Shown piece after piece: positions 4,928 to 19,202 of a stretch of 35,504 bases of DNA. The notes beneath the pieces are model-generated. The model searched no databases and had not been told where the DNA came from. It worked only from the letters and a program-made list of their open reading frames with translations. The position numbers were made by a program, and so were the translations under genes. The stretch is taken from NCBI GenBank assembly GCA_020344335.1, contig CP070821.1, forward strand, positions 837,409 to 872,912, given 5' to 3'. The DNA comes from Gammaproteobacteria bacterium. GTDB taxonomy: Bacteria; Pseudomonadota; Gammaproteobacteria; UBA9214. The first letter of the stretch is position 1, and each line of letters begins with the position of its first letter.

Positions 4928-4995
4928 CTGTAGGAGCGGCGTCCTCGCCGCGATGCGGCCCGGATCAATCGCGCCGCAGGCCGGCGCTCCTACAG
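4928..4995 (+). repeat. REP/BIME-type element, copy 1
   Basis: A 68-bp unit starting ctgtaggagcggcgtcc and ending ggcgctcctacag. The ends are inverted (gtaggagc / gctcctac) and the inner part is GC-rich and self-complementary (gcggcg...cgccgc). It is nearly identical to copy 2, 13 bp downstream. It belongs to the 'gtaggagcgg' REP family widespread in gammaproteobacteria. It sits 17 bp after the stop of the deacetylase-like gene. Confidence 0.85.
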
Positions 4996-5008
4996 GATAA
5001 CCGGAATA

Positions 5009-5075
5009 TGCAGGAGCGGCGTCCTCGCCGCGATGCGGCCCGGATCAATCGCGCCGCAGGCCGGCGCTCCTACAG
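5009..5075 (+). repeat. REP/BIME-type element, copy 2
   Basis: Repeats copy 1 in direct orientation. The inner ~60 bp are identical, and the left edge reads tgcaggagc rather than tgtaggagc. Together with copy 1 it forms a tandem array between convergent genes. Confidence 0.85.
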
Positions 5076-5085
5076 GTGTGTGTAG

Positions 5086-6507
5086 TTACCCTGTAGGAGC
5101 GGTCTCCTGACCGCGATTTTTTCCCAACTGCGGGAAACGCAGTGTCACCACCAGTCCCGGCCCGGAATCACCCAGTAACAGTTCCGCCTTGTGCAATGTC
5201 GCGACGGCCTGTACCAGACTCAGCCCAAGCCCGTTGCCCGGCGTATTGCGCGCACTCTCCAGCCTGACAAAACGTTCCAGTACGTGGGCGCGCTCTGCTT
5301 CGGGGATACCATCGCCGGTGTCGGAGAGGGTGATATCCACCGTTTTCCTGCCCGGTATGACCTGCAGGCGAATCGAACCACCGTCCGGGGTGAACTTGAT
5401 GGCATTTTCTAGCAGGTTGCCGATCGCCTGTGCCAGCAGGTCGCGGCTGCCGGTGATTACTGACCTGTTATCCGTGATCAATTCAAGCTGCTGTCCTTTT
5501 TCCTCGGCAGATGCCCGGTACAGGTCGGCAAGATCATGCGCCAGCTCATCCAGATTGACTGTACCCCACTCGGCACGGTGGTTGCCGGACTCGGCCTGTG
5601 CAATGCTGAGCAGTGCATTGAAAGTCCTGATCAGTGACTCTGTCTCTGCGATTCCCTGGGTCAGTGCATTTCGATATTCCTGCGGGTCGCGATCTTCCAG
5701 CAGGGTAACCTCCAGCTGATTGCGCAGCCGTGTCAGCGGGCTTCTCAGGTCATGCGCGATGTTGTCGGTAACTTCCCGGATGCCCTTGATCAGCAACTGG
5801 ATTTGGTCAAGCATCAGGTTGAGTCGTCCGGCAAGGGCGTCGAACTCGTCATCCCGGTCGCTGATTGGTATCCGCTGTGACAGATCGCCGGTCATGATGT
5901 CCCCGGCCGTATTACTGATGGTATCCATGCGCCGCAAAATGGTACGGCTCAGGATGATACTCATCACCAGTCCGAGCACTACGGCAGCACCCACGATCTC
6001 GATGAGAATCTCCGTAACTTCGTTCAGTGGTCCGCTCTGTGGCACATCCTGGGCCAGTAGCAGCCGGCTGCCATCGTCAAATTCGCTGACGATGGCCGGT
6101 AGCAGGGCGTCATCTCCATGACGGTCACCGGGGATGATTTCCTCGTCGAACCATTCGGTCTGCACGGTGCCGCCCGGGGTAATGTCGGCTTCATCCGGCC
6201 AGGCCAGCAGGTTGCCGGCGATCCGGGAACCGTCTTCTGCAACCAGCAGGTAATAGCGGCCGGACTCCGGTTTGGCTGTCAGCTTCCGGTTAATGATGTC
6301 AATCAGGTGTGTATTGCCGTACTGCGCCTGCGTCTTCGATAATGCGCTGAGTTCCCGCTCCAGTTCCGTCTCCAGCCGTGCATCGATCTGTTTACCGGTT
6401 GTCCACAGGAACGCGCCCAGCACAAGGCCCAGCACCACCAGGTAGACAAGCGTATAACGGAATGCCAGCCGGACCGCGGTGGTAGAAAACAATCTAGGGA
6501 GTTTCAC
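5086..6507 (-). CDS. Two-component sensor histidine kinase (HAMP-HisKA-HATPase)
   Basis: The partner of the OmpR-type regulator just upstream. The protein has two membrane helices (YTLVYLVVLGLVLGAFLW, and one around EILIEIVGAAVVLGLVMSII) enclosing a periplasmic sensor of roughly 130 residues. A HAMP segment follows, then the H-box AHDLRSPLTRLR with the phosphoacceptor His, the N-box NLLENAIKF, G1 DTGDGIPEAE, and G2 GNGLGLSLVQA. I chose the GTG at 6507, which overlaps the regulator stop by 14 bp and gives about 473 residues. A longer frame opens at 6597 but would overlap the regulator by more than 100 bp. The last ten residues (NRGQETAPTG) are encoded by a REP element. The overall type resembles metal or oxidant sensors such as CusS/HprS; the signal is unknown. 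Confidence 0.9.
   Translation of the reverse strand: MKLPRLFSTTAVRLAFRYTLVYLVVLGLVLGAFLWTTGKQIDARLETELERELSALSKTQAQYGNTHLIDIINRKLTAKPESGRYYLLVAEDGSRIAGNLLAWPDEADITPGGTVQTEWFDEEIIPGDRHGDDALLPAIVSEFDDGSRLLLAQDVPQSGPLNEVTEILIEIVGAAVVLGLVMSIILSRTILRRMDTISNTAGDIMTGDLSQRIPISDRDDEFDALAGRLNLMLDQIQLLIKGIREVTDNIAHDLRSPLTRLRNQLEVTLLEDRDPQEYRNALTQGIAETESLIRTFNALLSIAQAESGNHRAEWGTVNLDELAHDLADLYRASAEEKGQQLELITDNRSVITGSRDLLAQAIGNLLENAIKFTPDGGSIRLQVIPGRKTVDITLSDTGDGIPEAERAHVLERFVRLESARNTPGNGLGLSLVQAVATLHKAELLLGDSGPGLVVTLRFPQLGKNRGQETAPTG
5091..5122 (+). repeat. REP half-element (copy 3), also terminator-like
   Basis: The sequence ctgtaggagcggtctcctgaccgcgat is a shorter REP with a gcggtc-tcct-gaccgc hairpin. 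It is followed on the + strand by a run of T residues (5117-5122), so it could also terminate the deacetylase-like transcript. It overlaps the 3' end of the convergent kinase gene, whose last ten codons fall inside this element. Confidence 0.75.
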
Positions 6508-7171
6508 TGAGTTTGTACCCGGTACCGCGTACGGTGTGGAGGAGGGGGCGGTCCGCATCCTTGTCAATCTTGTTGCGCAAGCGGCTGATTTGCACATCGA
6601 TCACGTTGGTCTGCGGATCGAAGCGGAAATCCCACACATTCTCCAGTATCATCGTGCGGGTAACGACCTGATCTGCATGTCGCATCAGGTATTCCAGTAA
6701 CCGGAACTGGCGTGGCTGCAGGCGTATCTGCTGGCCGGCGCGTGCGGCGGATTGCCTGCGCAAATCTATCACCAGGTCGGCAACCTGGAGCTGTTGCTGT
6801 AAATCCATTGGCTGGCTGCGGCGCGTCAGTGCCTCGAGCCGTGCGAGCAGTTCAGAAAAGGCATAAGGCTTGACCAGGTAGTCATCACCACCGGCCTGCA
6901 AGCCGGTAATCCTGTCATCTACTTCACCCAGCGCTGACAATACAAGCACCGGCGTTTGGTTCTTGTCGGCCCGTAGCATCCGGACGATGGACAGGCCCTC
7001 ACGCCCGGGCAGCATGCGATCGGCGATTATGACATCGTAATTACCGGTCAACGCAAGGTGCAGGCCATCATCACCGGTGGCGGCATGATCAACCACATGT
7101 CCGCCCTCACCCAGCCCCTTCACCAGGTACTCCGCAGCCTGAACGTCATCTTCAATTAGCAATATATGCAT
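6494..7171 (-). CDS. OmpR/PhoB-family response regulator
   Basis: A receiver domain (acidic pocket IEDD near the N-terminus, phosphoacceptor Asp in YDVIIADRML, conserved Lys in DDYLVKPYAF) is followed by a winged-helix DNA-binding domain (about 125-222; TRTMILENVWDFRFDPQTN, then IDVQISRLRNKID). It is about 225 residues, the normal length. I chose the ATG at 7171; a TTG three codons upstream is also in frame. The kinase gene overlaps its 3' end, so the two are co-translated. A CATTAC-N6-GTAATG palindrome lies 35 bp upstream of the start, consistent with autoregulation. The helix and linker features fit the heavy-metal/peroxide subgroup (CusR, HprR), but the exact subgroup is inferred. Confidence 0.92.
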   Translation of the reverse strand: MHILLIEDDVQAAEYLVKGLGEGGHVVDHAATGDDGLHLALTGNYDVIIADRMLPGREGLSIVRMLRADKNQTPVLVLSALGEVDDRITGLQAGGDDYLVKPYAFSELLARLEALTRRSQPMDLQQQLQVADLVIDLRRQSAARAGQQIRLQPRQFRLLEYLMRHADQVVTRTMILENVWDFRFDPQTNVIDVQISRLRNKIDKDADRPLLHTVRGTGYKLSETP

Positions 7172-7205
7172 TATTGACAATCATAGCCTTATACAAAGGG
7201 GGGCA

Positions 7206-7223
7206 CATTACCGTTTTGTAATG
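7206..7223. promoter_or_regulatory. Palindromic operator CATTAC-N6-GTAATG
   Basis: A perfect 6-6-6 inverted repeat lies in the intergenic region between the response regulator (start at 7171, left) and the divergent secreted protein (start at 7326, right). It matches the half-sites recognised by E. coli HprR and CusR (CATTAC and GTAATG with a 6-base spacer). It is the best candidate for the binding site of the adjacent regulator. A second, weaker inverted repeat, AAACG-N5-CGTTT, follows immediately at 7224-7238. Confidence 0.6.
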
Positions 7224-7325
7224 AAACGGAAAACGTTTGGCAAGCCTGTATCGGAATAATGAACATGTGACAGCAATACTTTCGTTGATTGATGAGCCGT
7301 TTTTTCTTGCCAGGAGGATTACTCG

Positions 7326-8330
7326 ATGAACAAGCAGAACATTAACGTAACTCGAAAGGCGCGGTCGGCCGTGCCGGGTGTCATCATGTCCGTCGTGTTG
7401 ACGGGTGGTCTGGCAGCCGGGACGCAGGGTGCATGGGCAGGTAACGGGCACAAGTACTGTTCCGCCACCGCCAAGGCCGCATTCAGGGCCTGTGAAAATG
7501 AGGTCACGGATGATTACTGGATTGCACAGGCCATCTGTATCAATGTCTCCGATGATGGTGACCGTGCAGAGTGCGAAGCGGATGCCAGGGAGGCAAAGGA
7601 AGAGGACAAGGAATTATGTAGTGAACAGCGGGATGCCCGTATGGAGCTTTGCAGTCTCGTTGGAGAAGAGCGTTATGATCCGGACTTCGATCCGACCAGC
7701 TTTGTCGACCCGGATGCTATCGGAGACACCGTGGCAGCGAATCCGTATTTTCCGTTGATACCCGGTACTACCTGGGTCTATGAAGGGGGTGACGAGACGA
7801 TTACCGTGGTCGTTACCGACAAGACCAAACTGATCGATGGTGTAACCTGTCGTGTCGTAAATGATGTTGTCGAAGATGACGGCGAGGTAATCGAGGATAC
7901 CGATGACTGGTATGCCCAGCATGTTAACGGCGATGTCTGGTATTGCGGTGAACTTGCCAGGGATTTCGAGACCTTCGAGGGGGATAATCCCGATGATCCC
8001 GAGCTCGTTGAAATCGAAGGGTCATTCAAGGCCGGGCGGGATGGCGACAAGCCGGGGATACTTATGCCGGCTGTGCCGCAAGTGGGTGATGTATACCGCC
8101 AGGAGGTGTCGCTGGGTAATGCCGAAGACGCCGCAGAGGTTATCAGTCTGTCAGGCACGGAAATGGTGCCTGCTGCTGAGTGTAATAACGACTGCCTCAT
8201 TACCAGGGATTTTACCCCGCTTGAGCCGGGTATCGAAGAGTATAAATACCATGCACCAGGTGTTGGCATGATCCTTGAGGTCGACATGGAAGGCAATCGC
8301 GTAGAACTCGTTGAGGTGACCACTCCTTGA
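7326..8330 (+). CDS. Secreted protein of unknown function, cysteine-rich helical N-region
   Basis: A 334-residue exported protein. The signal peptide runs to AWA at about residue 38 (hydrophobic core 18-32). The mature N-region (39-115) is helical and highly charged, with six Cys at 45, 56, 71, 83, 98 and 109; the spacing is symmetric (10, 14, 11, 14, 10 residues between). An acidic linker follows, then a beta-rich domain starting near NPYFPLIPGTTWVYEG (139) and running to the end, with three or four further Cys. The start has a good Shine-Dalgarno (caggagg, 7 bp upstream). The gene is divergent from the two-component system and shares its intergenic region, so it may be a target. I recognise the 'PLIPGTTWVYEG' type of domain from other uncharacterised exported proteins but know no function. 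Confidence 0.8.
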   Translation: MNKQNINVTRKARSAVPGVIMSVVLTGGLAAGTQGAWAGNGHKYCSATAKAAFRACENEVTDDYWIAQAICINVSDDGDRAECEADAREAKEEDKELCSEQRDARMELCSLVGEERYDPDFDPTSFVDPDAIGDTVAANPYFPLIPGTTWVYEGGDETITVVVTDKTKLIDGVTCRVVNDVVEDDGEVIEDTDDWYAQHVNGDVWYCGELARDFETFEGDNPDDPELVEIEGSFKAGRDGDKPGILMPAVPQVGDVYRQEVSLGNAEDAAEVISLSGTEMVPAAECNNDCLITRDFTPLEPGIEEYKYHAPGVGMILEVDMEGNRVELVEVTTP

Positions 8331-8558: not shown

Positions 8559-8606
8559 ATTAACAAGAAAATACGGTCATTCTCGTTCTGCTGACGTACT
8601 GCATTG

Positions 8607-9704
8607 ATGATTCGTGGCTGGATCAAAACAAGTTGTGTGATTATCAGCATGGCGATACTGGTATTGCCGGATTATGCACTCGCTGCAGATGCCGTTATGC
8701 ATGATGAAGTGAATGGGCATGTGCGCATTTACAGGACACGCGAGGAACGTCGTGAAGCGGGTCTGAAACACGAAATCACTGACTGGCTGACGCTCTCGGG
8801 CCTGTTGGAACTGGAGTATGAGTTCCAGCGGTTCAGCCATAATGATACCTCGTCACATTCCCATGATGATGATTTCACCAAGACGCTTCAGATCGGCGCC
8901 GAGCTGCATCCATTTTCCTGGATGAAGGGTGAACTGATCTATGAGTACGATGATGAAGCCAACCGGCATACCCTGGACGAGGGGTTTGCATCCTTCGAGG
9001 CCGGTGATTTCGAACTGGAGGCGGGGAGATTGTATGTCCCGTTTGGCGTGTATTTCAGTCATTTTGTCACCGGTCCGGTACTTGAGTTCGGCGAAACCCG
9101 CGATGTGGGGATGAACCTTTCCTGGGCACCCGATGACCGGCTGGATATTGCCGCCTTTGTCTACAAGGGCCGGGCTCGCAAGGCCGGTTCAGGTGGCAAG
9201 GACTGGGACTGGGGGTTCACGGCAGAAGGCTCGCCGTTCGAATTCGGTTCGTTTGGCGTCAGCTACCTGTCCGACCTGGCGGATTCCCAGGAGGGATTCC
9301 TCAGTGACGAGGGTGACCGCTATGACTCGCGCGTGGACGCCTGGAGTGCCTATGCCGTTGTCGGGTACGACCGTTTTGAACTGACGGCCGAGGTGGTGCG
9401 TGCGCTGGATTCGTTCCGGGAGCTGGATCCGGACCGGGACAGGCCGCGCGCGTGGAATGTCGAGCTCGGTTTTTACCCGGCGGGTAACTTCGAGTGGGCA
9501 CTGCGGGTGGAAGGCAGCGGCGATGTCGAGGATGCCCCGCGGTTACAGGGCGGGGTATCGGTCGCCTGGCGGATTACCCGGACCGCCAGCCTGACACTGG
9601 ATTATCTCAGGGGTTCCTACCGTCGGGGCCTGGCCGAGGGTCCCGGTGACCGTGAACTGGACAAGGTCCACCAAGTGGCCGGACAACTCTCGGTTGAGTT
9701 CTGA
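8607..9704 (+). CDS. Outer-membrane beta-barrel protein, LbtU-family porin-like
   Basis: About 365 residues. An N-terminal signal peptide ends near YALA. The rest is an alternating amphipathic beta-strand pattern, with aromatic girdles and acidic, glycine-rich loops, ending in a terminal strand QLSVEF with a C-terminal Phe, as in outer-membrane barrels. Segments such as FGVYFSHFVTGPVLEFGETRD and AYAVVGYDRFELTAEVVRAL recall LbtU-type siderophore porins; the family call is from memory. A His/Asp-rich loop (SHNDTSSHSHDDDF, about 78-91) could bind metal. A TTG immediately precedes the ATG in frame; no strong Shine-Dalgarno is visible. Genes on both sides are on the same strand but separated by a terminator upstream and about 195 bp downstream. 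Confidence 0.7.
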   Translation: MIRGWIKTSCVIISMAILVLPDYALAADAVMHDEVNGHVRIYRTREERREAGLKHEITDWLTLSGLLELEYEFQRFSHNDTSSHSHDDDFTKTLQIGAELHPFSWMKGELIYEYDDEANRHTLDEGFASFEAGDFELEAGRLYVPFGVYFSHFVTGPVLEFGETRDVGMNLSWAPDDRLDIAAFVYKGRARKAGSGGKDWDWGFTAEGSPFEFGSFGVSYLSDLADSQEGFLSDEGDRYDSRVDAWSAYAVVGYDRFELTAEVVRALDSFRELDPDRDRPRAWNVELGFYPAGNFEWALRVEGSGDVEDAPRLQGGVSVAWRITRTASLTLDYLRGSYRRGLAEGPGDRELDKVHQVAGQLSVEF

Positions 9705-17926: not shown

Positions 17927-18299
17927 TGTTCTTCGTGGCTGTTTTTTTTATTTATTTCAGAAGGGTAACTATTCCCTGAAACCGGGCGTTCAGGATATTA
18001 ATCCCAGGAATTCGAGTCTTTTGTCTTGTTGCTGATCAGGCAGGCATCAAGCGTATCGTCTGGACTGGCTCAGTAATCCACCCCTGCTCTGCAATTAAAA
18101 AAGGGCTGTCGAAACGTCTCCGGGATAGCTGATTATCTTGATATTTGCGATCAGTTACACGCCAGAACCTTGTCTTACCAAATGGTAATGATACGGTCGG
18201 TATCCATTGTCTATACTCGAATGTGTGGCATTTCGTTGCCAAAAGATCCGGCAAACTGCCGGATGTAATGTATGTATAGCGAATAATAAGGAGGACATT
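17927..18299. other. Intergenic region before the secreted protein at 18300: inverted repeats, probable promoter
   Basis: No supported gene in 373 bp. It holds an inverted repeat TTACC-AAAT-GGTAA at 18175-18188, a plausible -10 (TATACT, 18212-18217), and a leader hairpin at 18246-18264. The first 100 bp are T-rich and AT-rich. Confidence 0.4.
18246..18264 (+). promoter_or_regulatory. Leader hairpin upstream of the secreted protein gene
   Basis: ATCCGGCA-AAC-TGCCGGAT forms an 8-bp perfect stem with a 3-base loop, ending 35 bp before the start codon at 18300. There is no T-run. It may affect mRNA stability or be a protein-binding site. Confidence 0.4.
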
Positions 18300-19202
18300 A
18301 TGAAATACGAAGCTGTTATTTCTAATATGCTCATGCATGTTTCGTCACGCTTGGAGAAACTGTCCACCAACCGGGGCGCTTCCTTTGATGGTGATAATCG
18401 AACAGGAATAAACGATGTGACAATACGCAGGCACAGATTTCCCGTTTATGCGGTATCAATGTTCGCCTTTGCGCTGGGGATGCCTGCGTGGGGTGATGAA
18501 GAACCCAACGAAATCAGTGAATGCGACGTTTTTATAGAAATTAACGCCACCGATGAAGATGCAGGGTGGCAGGGAATTCTTGATGCCAGCCCGTGGAGGA
18601 TGGCCCAGGTCATTGGCCCGGATGAGAATGGAAGTGATGGTAAAACATTCCTGAAAATAAAAGCACAGGGTGAGGCCAGAAAGCAGGGTATAACCGAATA
18701 TCGATGGGAAAGTGCCGAGCCGACGTTCGACGACTTCGCGCTGGAAGATTTCCTCGACCGGTTCCCTGCAGGTGAATATACATGCAGTGTCACCTTTATC
18801 GACGGTCATCCTAAAAAGGAAGAGGATGAGGATGAACTCACGCACTGTCTTCCGGACGGGCCGGTAATTACGGACCCGGGAGAGTTGCCCGCAGGTACAG
18901 ACTGGACGGTCATGTGGGGCCCGGTTACGACTCAATATGATGGAGATGGTCCCGGTCTGGGTGCTCCACTTGATGAATGTGACCCTGAAGATGAGCTTGT
19001 GAAATACAACGTTACCGTCGAGTTTGAAAACGGTTTTGATAAAGTGATGAACTTTGATGTTATGGCACCTGCCTCAATGGCCGTGATTTCCGGAGACTTT
19101 CTCGAATGTGGCCTGGAGGGGAAGGTCGAAATTGGGGCATTCCTGGATAGCGGCAACTCGACCTTCAGGGAAATCGAGATCGCCACAAGCGACTGTCCGT
19201 AG
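18300..19202 (+). CDS. Secreted acidic protein of unknown function
   Basis: A 300-residue frame preceded by a very strong Shine-Dalgarno (aaggagg, 5 bp before the ATG). The signal-peptide-like part is internal: RRHR at about 43-46, then a hydrophobic stretch (VYAVSMFAFALGM) and a cleavage-like AWG at about 65. The first 40 residues (MKYEAVISNMLMHVSSRLEK...) are an odd extension. An in-frame GTG at 18417, with an AGGA 9 bp upstream, would put the signal peptide at the very N-terminus. The mature part is acidic and probably beta-rich, with about six Cys (for example CDVF, YTCSVTF, THCLPDG, ECGLEG) and a C-terminal TSDCP. The central GTDWTVMWGPVTTQY segment suggests immunoglobulin or fibronectin-like strands. 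No function known. It ends 112 bp before a terminator. Confidence 0.7.
   Translation: MKYEAVISNMLMHVSSRLEKLSTNRGASFDGDNRTGINDVTIRRHRFPVYAVSMFAFALGMPAWGDEEPNEISECDVFIEINATDEDAGWQGILDASPWRMAQVIGPDENGSDGKTFLKIKAQGEARKQGITEYRWESAEPTFDDFALEDFLDRFPAGEYTCSVTFIDGHPKKEEDEDELTHCLPDGPVITDPGELPAGTDWTVMWGPVTTQYDGDGPGLGAPLDECDPEDELVKYNVTVEFENGFDKVMNFDVMAPASMAVISGDFLECGLEGKVEIGAFLDSGNSTFREIEIATSDCP

Follow-up and report, generated by a model that had tools for sequence, protein, structure and literature searches.

A conserved GTAATG dyad as candidate operator of a CusR-sister response regulator, with predicted leaderless self-activation and likely control of an exported protein

The window (the whole 35,504-nucleotide stretch of DNA analysed here) carries genes for an OmpR-type response regulator (RR) and its cognate sensor histidine kinase, which are divergent from a gene for a Cys-containing exported protein that is followed by a porin gene of the LbtU family (Table 1). 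Domain searches of the RR returned a receiver domain (PF00072) and an OmpR-type winged helix (PF00486), and its further neighbours include glyA-like and deacetylase-like genes (both by eye). Between the two divergent genes, the letters at positions 7206-7223, where the initial annotation had placed an operator of HprR/CusR type, read CATTACCGTTTTGTAATG. This palindrome lies close to the RR gene, as had been claimed, although 34 nt rather than 35 nt separate it from the RR start codon (ATG 7169-7171, minus strand); on its other side, 102 nt lie before the ATG of the divergent gene. The protein encoded by the latter has no match in Pfam or NCBIfam, a sequence search of the PDB found no relative (best E 0.5), and its AlphaFold model is poor (mean pLDDT 43). 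Homologues of this protein were found in 8 of 368 other genomes of the class. After the kinase gene, at about 4931-5115, lies a REP-like inverted repeat, GTAGGAGCGG...CGCTCCTAC, in two near-identical copies and a partial one.

Table 1 Features of the window discussed in the text, with the basis of each assignment.
Feature	Coordinates	Strand	Basis or remark
Sensor histidine kinase, cognate to the RR	5086..6510	-	HAMP, HisKA, HATPase_c; alignment; periplasmic part without Cys or Met
OmpR-type response regulator (RR)	6494..7171	-	Pfam Response_reg and Trans_reg_C
Predicted -10 TATGAT of the RR promoter	7180..7185	-	20 nt from operator, 8 nt before RR ATG
Candidate operator palindrome CATTAC-N6-GTAATG	7206..7223	.	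Exact match and positional footprint in related RR loci
Possible -10 AATAAT of the exported-protein gene, weak	7255..7260	+	31 nt past operator
Divergent exported protein, signal-like N-terminus (by eye), Cys-containing helical part	7326..8330	+	No known family
LbtU-family outer-membrane porin	8604..9704	+	NF033652, 116.5 bits against a cut-off of 90
Second candidate operator TCTTACCAAATGGTAATG, core TTAC-N6-GTAA exact	18173..18190	+	Layout match
Predicted -10 TATACT	18212..18217	+	21 nt past second operator; RR promoters 20-23 nt
Exported protein (by eye), unnamed family	18300..19202	+	Homologues beside RR or kinase genes in G227 and G374

Searches for further copies of the palindrome in the genome were pattern searches. 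An exact CATTAC-N6-GTAATG occurs once in the window and once in the 2,617,867-base genome, in both cases as the copy at 7206-7223, so that the genome scan proposed in the initial annotation found this site to be unique; base composition predicts 0.08 exact copies in the genome and 5e-6 in this 154-nt intergenic stretch. Palindromes with up to two mismatches were not in excess genome-wide (73, against 76 for the reversed control), and the count of matches therefore proves little on its own. The two genomic places with a single mismatch (L002, L003) were discarded because each falls within a long reading frame. The real support for a functional site at 7206-7223 is its positional conservation in related genomes, not the number of matches.

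RR homologues were collected from a scan of titled genome contigs (best 80 matches), from the 8 genomes in which the exported protein has a homologue, and from a set of 369 genomes belonging to the same class; 52 of the latter match at E <= 1e-80, and loci were taken from the best 30 of the 52. Together with six loci of the same family, these sources gave 123 placed RR genes. Gammaproteobacterial loci whose RR was at least 60% identical and which had 150 nt of DNA upstream numbered 60, and removal of redundancy left 57, window included. The loci were assigned to the class by the class search or by record title, two titles saying only Proteobacteria. A site was scored when it had at most 4 mismatches in the 12 half-site bases and lay 32-35 nt before the RR start.

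Such a site was present in 30 of the 57 gammaproteobacterial loci among the matches listed. For comparison, 35 other 4-nt windows held a site in a mean of 1.4 loci (maximum 5), and 300 shuffles gave a mean of 0.8 (maximum 4). Only a spacer of N6 stands out, with at most two mismatches in 11 loci and a maximum of one locus for any other spacer from 2 to 10. Exact copies of the palindrome are also found in L133, L149 and L134, in the last of these at 87 nt. No site was found at 32-35 nt in the remaining 27 of the 57 loci, nor in any of 52 other RR loci (mostly alphaproteobacterial by title, at least 55% identity), and the site therefore belongs to part of the RR family. Absence from orthologous promoters had been named as the observation that would speak against an operator; instead, 30 of 57 orthologous promoters carry the site. 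On comparative grounds, the palindrome at 7206-7223 is thus a well-supported candidate operator of the adjacent RR, and its predicted role in autoregulation is likewise well supported.

The same data bear on the view that the palindrome arose by chance or is part of a mobile repeat. Artefacts of this kind do exist: in locus L124 (genome G074), the gene for a homologue of the exported protein is preceded by an exact palindrome that is part of a 16-bp perfect hairpin (around 1187-1222), and the hairpin follows what looks, by eye, like the last part of a REP-associated transposase. This locus was considered as a target in trans and was dropped as REP-like; hairpins of this type are a trap for motif scans. 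At 7206-7223, where the site is unique in its genome, such an origin is contradicted by the positional footprint in other families and is barely credible.

The bases that follow the operator on the RR side are also shared between loci. Hexamers with A at position 2, T at position 6 and 3 to 6 matches to TATAAT were selected as -10 candidates. In all 30 site-bearing loci, the best hexamer lies 20-23 nt beyond the site and precedes the ATG by 5-8 nt, the latter distance being exactly 6 nt in 22 of them; when ties were broken the other way, the hexamer still lay at 5-8 nt in 28 of 30. Applied to the 27 gammaproteobacterial loci lacking the site, the same procedure placed a hexamer at 5-8 nt in 10; the corresponding figures were 13 for the 62 other RR loci and, when the 30 loci were shuffled 200 times, a maximum of 10. 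A Shine-Dalgarno-like motif was found in none of the 30 site-bearing loci, compared with 6 of the 27 gammaproteobacterial loci without the site and 21 of the 62 other RR loci. From the position of the hexamer, transcription is predicted to start at the ATG or no more than about 2 nt from it, giving a leaderless transcript; the RR-kinase mRNA is probably leaderless across the 30 gammaproteobacterial loci. The predicted start in the window is at about position 7173, which would centre the operator at about -41.5, and the corresponding centres in the 30 loci range from -41.5 to -44.5.

An operator near -41.5 is in the position of a class II activator, which suits activation and not repression. 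The -10 spacing thus suggests positive self-activation of the RR. The autoregulation raised in the initial annotation is backed by the site in 30 of 57 RR promoters and by the shared -10 spacing. In the proposed mechanism, the phosphorylated RR would bind the palindrome as a dimer, with one subunit on each GTAATG half-site. Bound about 41.5 bp before its own transcription start, it would stand in for a -35 element by contacting RNA polymerase, and would activate its own leaderless RR-kinase mRNA in a positive feedback loop.

The arrangement with a divergent exported protein recurs outside the window. Homologues of the protein are divergent from the same RR in L041 (a Hydrocarboniphaga MAG), L046 (a Thiogranum MAG) and L122/L133, and a porin gene of LbtU type adjoins the exported protein in the window, in L046 (107.8 bits) and in L122 (by eye). 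All four loci with the divergent exported protein have the palindrome with 0-1 mismatch, compared with 4 of the remaining 53 loci (L149, L153, L134 and L160). Three of the four are sisters in the RR tree (support 100/97) and L046 stands apart, so that they amount to about two independent observations and not four. On the exported-protein side of the palindrome, hexamers resembling a -10 element, with 4-5 of 6 matches, lie at 31-32 nt in the four intergenic regions (by eye), although they are weak.

These observations were weighed against a reading in which the operator serves autoregulation of the RR-kinase pair only, the exported protein being a bystander with a promoter of its own. The site keeps its position equally well where the genes upstream are of quite another kind, as in L040, L044, L049 and L084, and the -10 hexamer of the exported-protein gene is weak. 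Moreover, most homologues of the exported protein are found away from the RR: among the nine genomes with a homologue, the RR lies within about 1.5 kb only in the window and in G037, and in L125, L128 and L132 the homologue is near a LuxR-like membrane regulator and not this two-component system (all by eye). The near-perfect palindromes in every locus with the divergent exported protein argue against a bystander, as do the recurrence of the arrangement in L046, which does not group with the other three as a sister, and a second site preceding another exported-protein gene (described below). We therefore regard a role confined to autoregulation as unlikely. Control of the divergent exported protein by the RR from the palindrome, which had been put forward in the initial annotation, is likely from the sequence comparison: the palindrome speaks for it, and the weak -10 and the location of most homologues speak against it. 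From this one site the RR would most likely activate the exported-protein gene, and perhaps also the LbtU porin gene that follows.

A second candidate operator was located 11 kb away in the window, followed by a predicted -10 element and, downstream, by a gene for another exported protein with a normal ribosome site and ATG at 18300. A genome-wide search for the operator-plus--10 layout gave 4 matches, and the reversed control also gave 4; the case for this second site therefore rests on position and neighbourhood. Two of the four matches are the sites at 7206-7223 and 18173-18190. Homologues of the protein encoded at 18300 were found in 6 of 368 other genomes of the class. In G227 a homologue is divergent from an RR, in G374 one adjoins a kinase that is paired with an RR paralogue of 54% identity (L143), and in G195 homologues of both exported-protein families are present on one contig. 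The second operator would put the 18300 protein under the control of the same RR.

The other two matches were assessed individually. One (L184) was dropped, since it overlaps the last part of a reading frame that is oxidase-like. At the other (L185, G000:C1:2078050-2078094), an RND pump gene carries a core site, TTACGAAACCGTAA, with CATACT 21 nt later and 6 nt before a possible GTG start. The -10 spacing is right, but identity between this pump and the RND proteins neighbouring the RR elsewhere is only 22-29%, and it is considered a tentative target. In G037 the same layout search found nothing but the RR promoter; in G215 it matched the RR palindrome, which was hit in both directions, and a single further place. 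With so few matches, the RR regulon looks small, and in this it would resemble those of HprR and CusR, which are described as single-target regulators (PMC8249747).

To what extent the system is of HprR/CusR type, as had been proposed, depends on the feature compared. The half-sites and the N6 spacer are identical to those of the E. coli hiuH-hprR box, CATTACAAAATTGTAATG, but the box beside E. coli cusR differs at 4 of the 12 half-site bases. The recognition-helix pattern N-x-(I/V)-D-V-x-(I/V)-x-R-L-R is common to the RR, CusR and HprR, as the comparison suggested in the initial annotation shows. Among five E. coli RRs compared, CusR is the closest (49% identity; HprR, 43%). The nearest NCBIfam models are TIGR01387, for heavy-metal RRs, and the CusR model, and the RR scores below the cut-off of both (252.1 bits against a curated 279.2, and 252 against 420), as it does for the HprR model (218.2 against 353). 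The RRs of the sister loci L041 and L122 score 237.5 and 259.2 bits on TIGR01387. Two CusR-like RRs from the same taxonomic family (L029 and L009, 69% identical to CusR) pass this model with 346.5 and 349.3 bits, although they fall below the CusR cut-off. In the tree, the RR clade (support 98/91, 32 rows) is sister to the CusR/HprR clade (99/94, 8 rows) and not inside it; long branches mark the deep rooting with PhoP, BasR and QseB, on which no conclusion is based. The box recurs, as CATTACAATTTTGTAAT[G/C], in the CusR-like RR loci L009, L010 and L029 of the same taxonomic family; the copies in L009 and L029 are flanked by the RR on one side and, by eye, an oxidase-like gene with a TAT signal on the other.

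The inner bases of the box differ as well. The AgrR box consensus is ATKACA-N4-TGTMAT (PMC7380067), and a box of the type ATTACA-N4-TGTAAT goes with the CusR/HprR clade; the window site agrees with the latter in its exact half-sites but does not keep the inner pair. Read in the direction of the RR, the inner bases of the window site are A and G; of the 30 site-bearing loci, 5 have A at position 7 and 4 have T at position 12, so the sites of the clade mostly lack the inner A and T of the consensus.

The sensor part of the kinase was compared with that of CusS, the boundaries being set by eye in both. The periplasmic stretch of the kinase (128 residues) has 0 Cys, 0 Met and 2 His, and that of CusS (150 residues) has 8 Met and 10 His. 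In four related kinases the counted sensor stretch contains 1-2 Met and 2-6 His. No copper efflux or oxidase genes were seen beside the RR at the locus, and a divergent hiuH-msrPQ was not found, the divergent gene being that of the unnamed exported protein. The copper or peroxide signal proposed in the initial annotation is thus unlikely: the sensor stretch offers 0 Cys, 0 Met and 2 His, and no copper or peroxide gene was seen beside the RR. That the RR is an orthologue of CusR or HprR responding to either signal would account for the half-sites and spacing of the hiuH-hprR box and for CusR being the closest of the five E. coli RRs. The sister position in the tree, the scores below three curated cut-offs (that for heavy-metal RRs being exceeded by CusR-like RRs from the same family), the inner bases of the box and a sensor without Met or Cys (though the four related kinases have a few Met and His) make such orthology very improbable.

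In selected loci of the RR clade, Pfam searches of the neighbouring genes found a Do/DegP-type protease (L056, L135), a PepSY protein (L160, L042), cytochrome b561 (L134, L152, L153) and an RND pump (L044), and a divergent Do-type protease is beside the RR in 13 of 56 loci (by eye). Given these neighbours and a sensor lacking Met and Cys, we infer with moderate confidence that the kinase reads an envelope condition, which it would most likely sense rather than copper or peroxide.

Among known systems, E. coli HprR/HprS shares with the window locus the CATTAC/GTAATG half-sites, the N6 spacer and a box between the RR gene and a divergent gene, and on the hprR side TATGAT lies 21 nt past the box (counted here on the sequence); autoregulation of HprR is reported (PMC9302797, PMC8249747). 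It differs in the RR, which belongs to a separate clade from that of the window, and in having 4 Met in the HprS sensor part against none here; beside the window RR, moreover, no hiuH or msrP was seen, and its predicted -10 is 8 nt before the ATG. CusR, CopR and AgrR (PMC7380067) are likewise OmpR-type RRs with an inverted-repeat site near the RR gene, sometimes with a divergent operon. Unlike these, the clade of the window RR has not kept the inner box bases, and the window system lacks a Met/His-rich sensor and has an RR below the TIGR01387 cut-off. Passages on UzcR contained no box. The loci in which the RR is beside a Do/DegP protease, PepSY, cytochrome b561 or RND gene are in the same clade as the window, and many share the operator place and the layout. 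They differ in the divergent gene, which encodes the Cys-containing exported protein in the window and three loci, and in the LbtU porin of the window, L046 and L122. A literature search found no description of this RR clade or its promoter layout among the matches listed.

Taken as a whole, the explanation that we favour, with a probability of roughly three in four, is that the palindrome is the operator of the RR, from which the RR would activate its own leaderless mRNA and control the divergent exported protein, with a second operator before the 18300 gene and a kinase responding to an envelope signal. More tentatively, and at a confidence short of even, the clade may represent a lineage sister to CusR that is linked to envelope genes (Do/DegP, PepSY, cytochrome b561, RND, LbtU) and controls itself without a leader through a GTAATG dyad at -41.5, and that in several lineages has been rewired so that its main targets are exported proteins of two unnamed families.

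The same half-sites are used by a sister RR clade whose sensor and neighbours are different, and finding CATTAC-N6-GTAATG is therefore not enough by itself to imply that copper or peroxide is the signal. The analysis turns a motif match into a testable circuit, with a defined candidate operator and a predicted leaderless, self-activating promoter, and would place two exported-protein families of unknown function under one envelope regulator.
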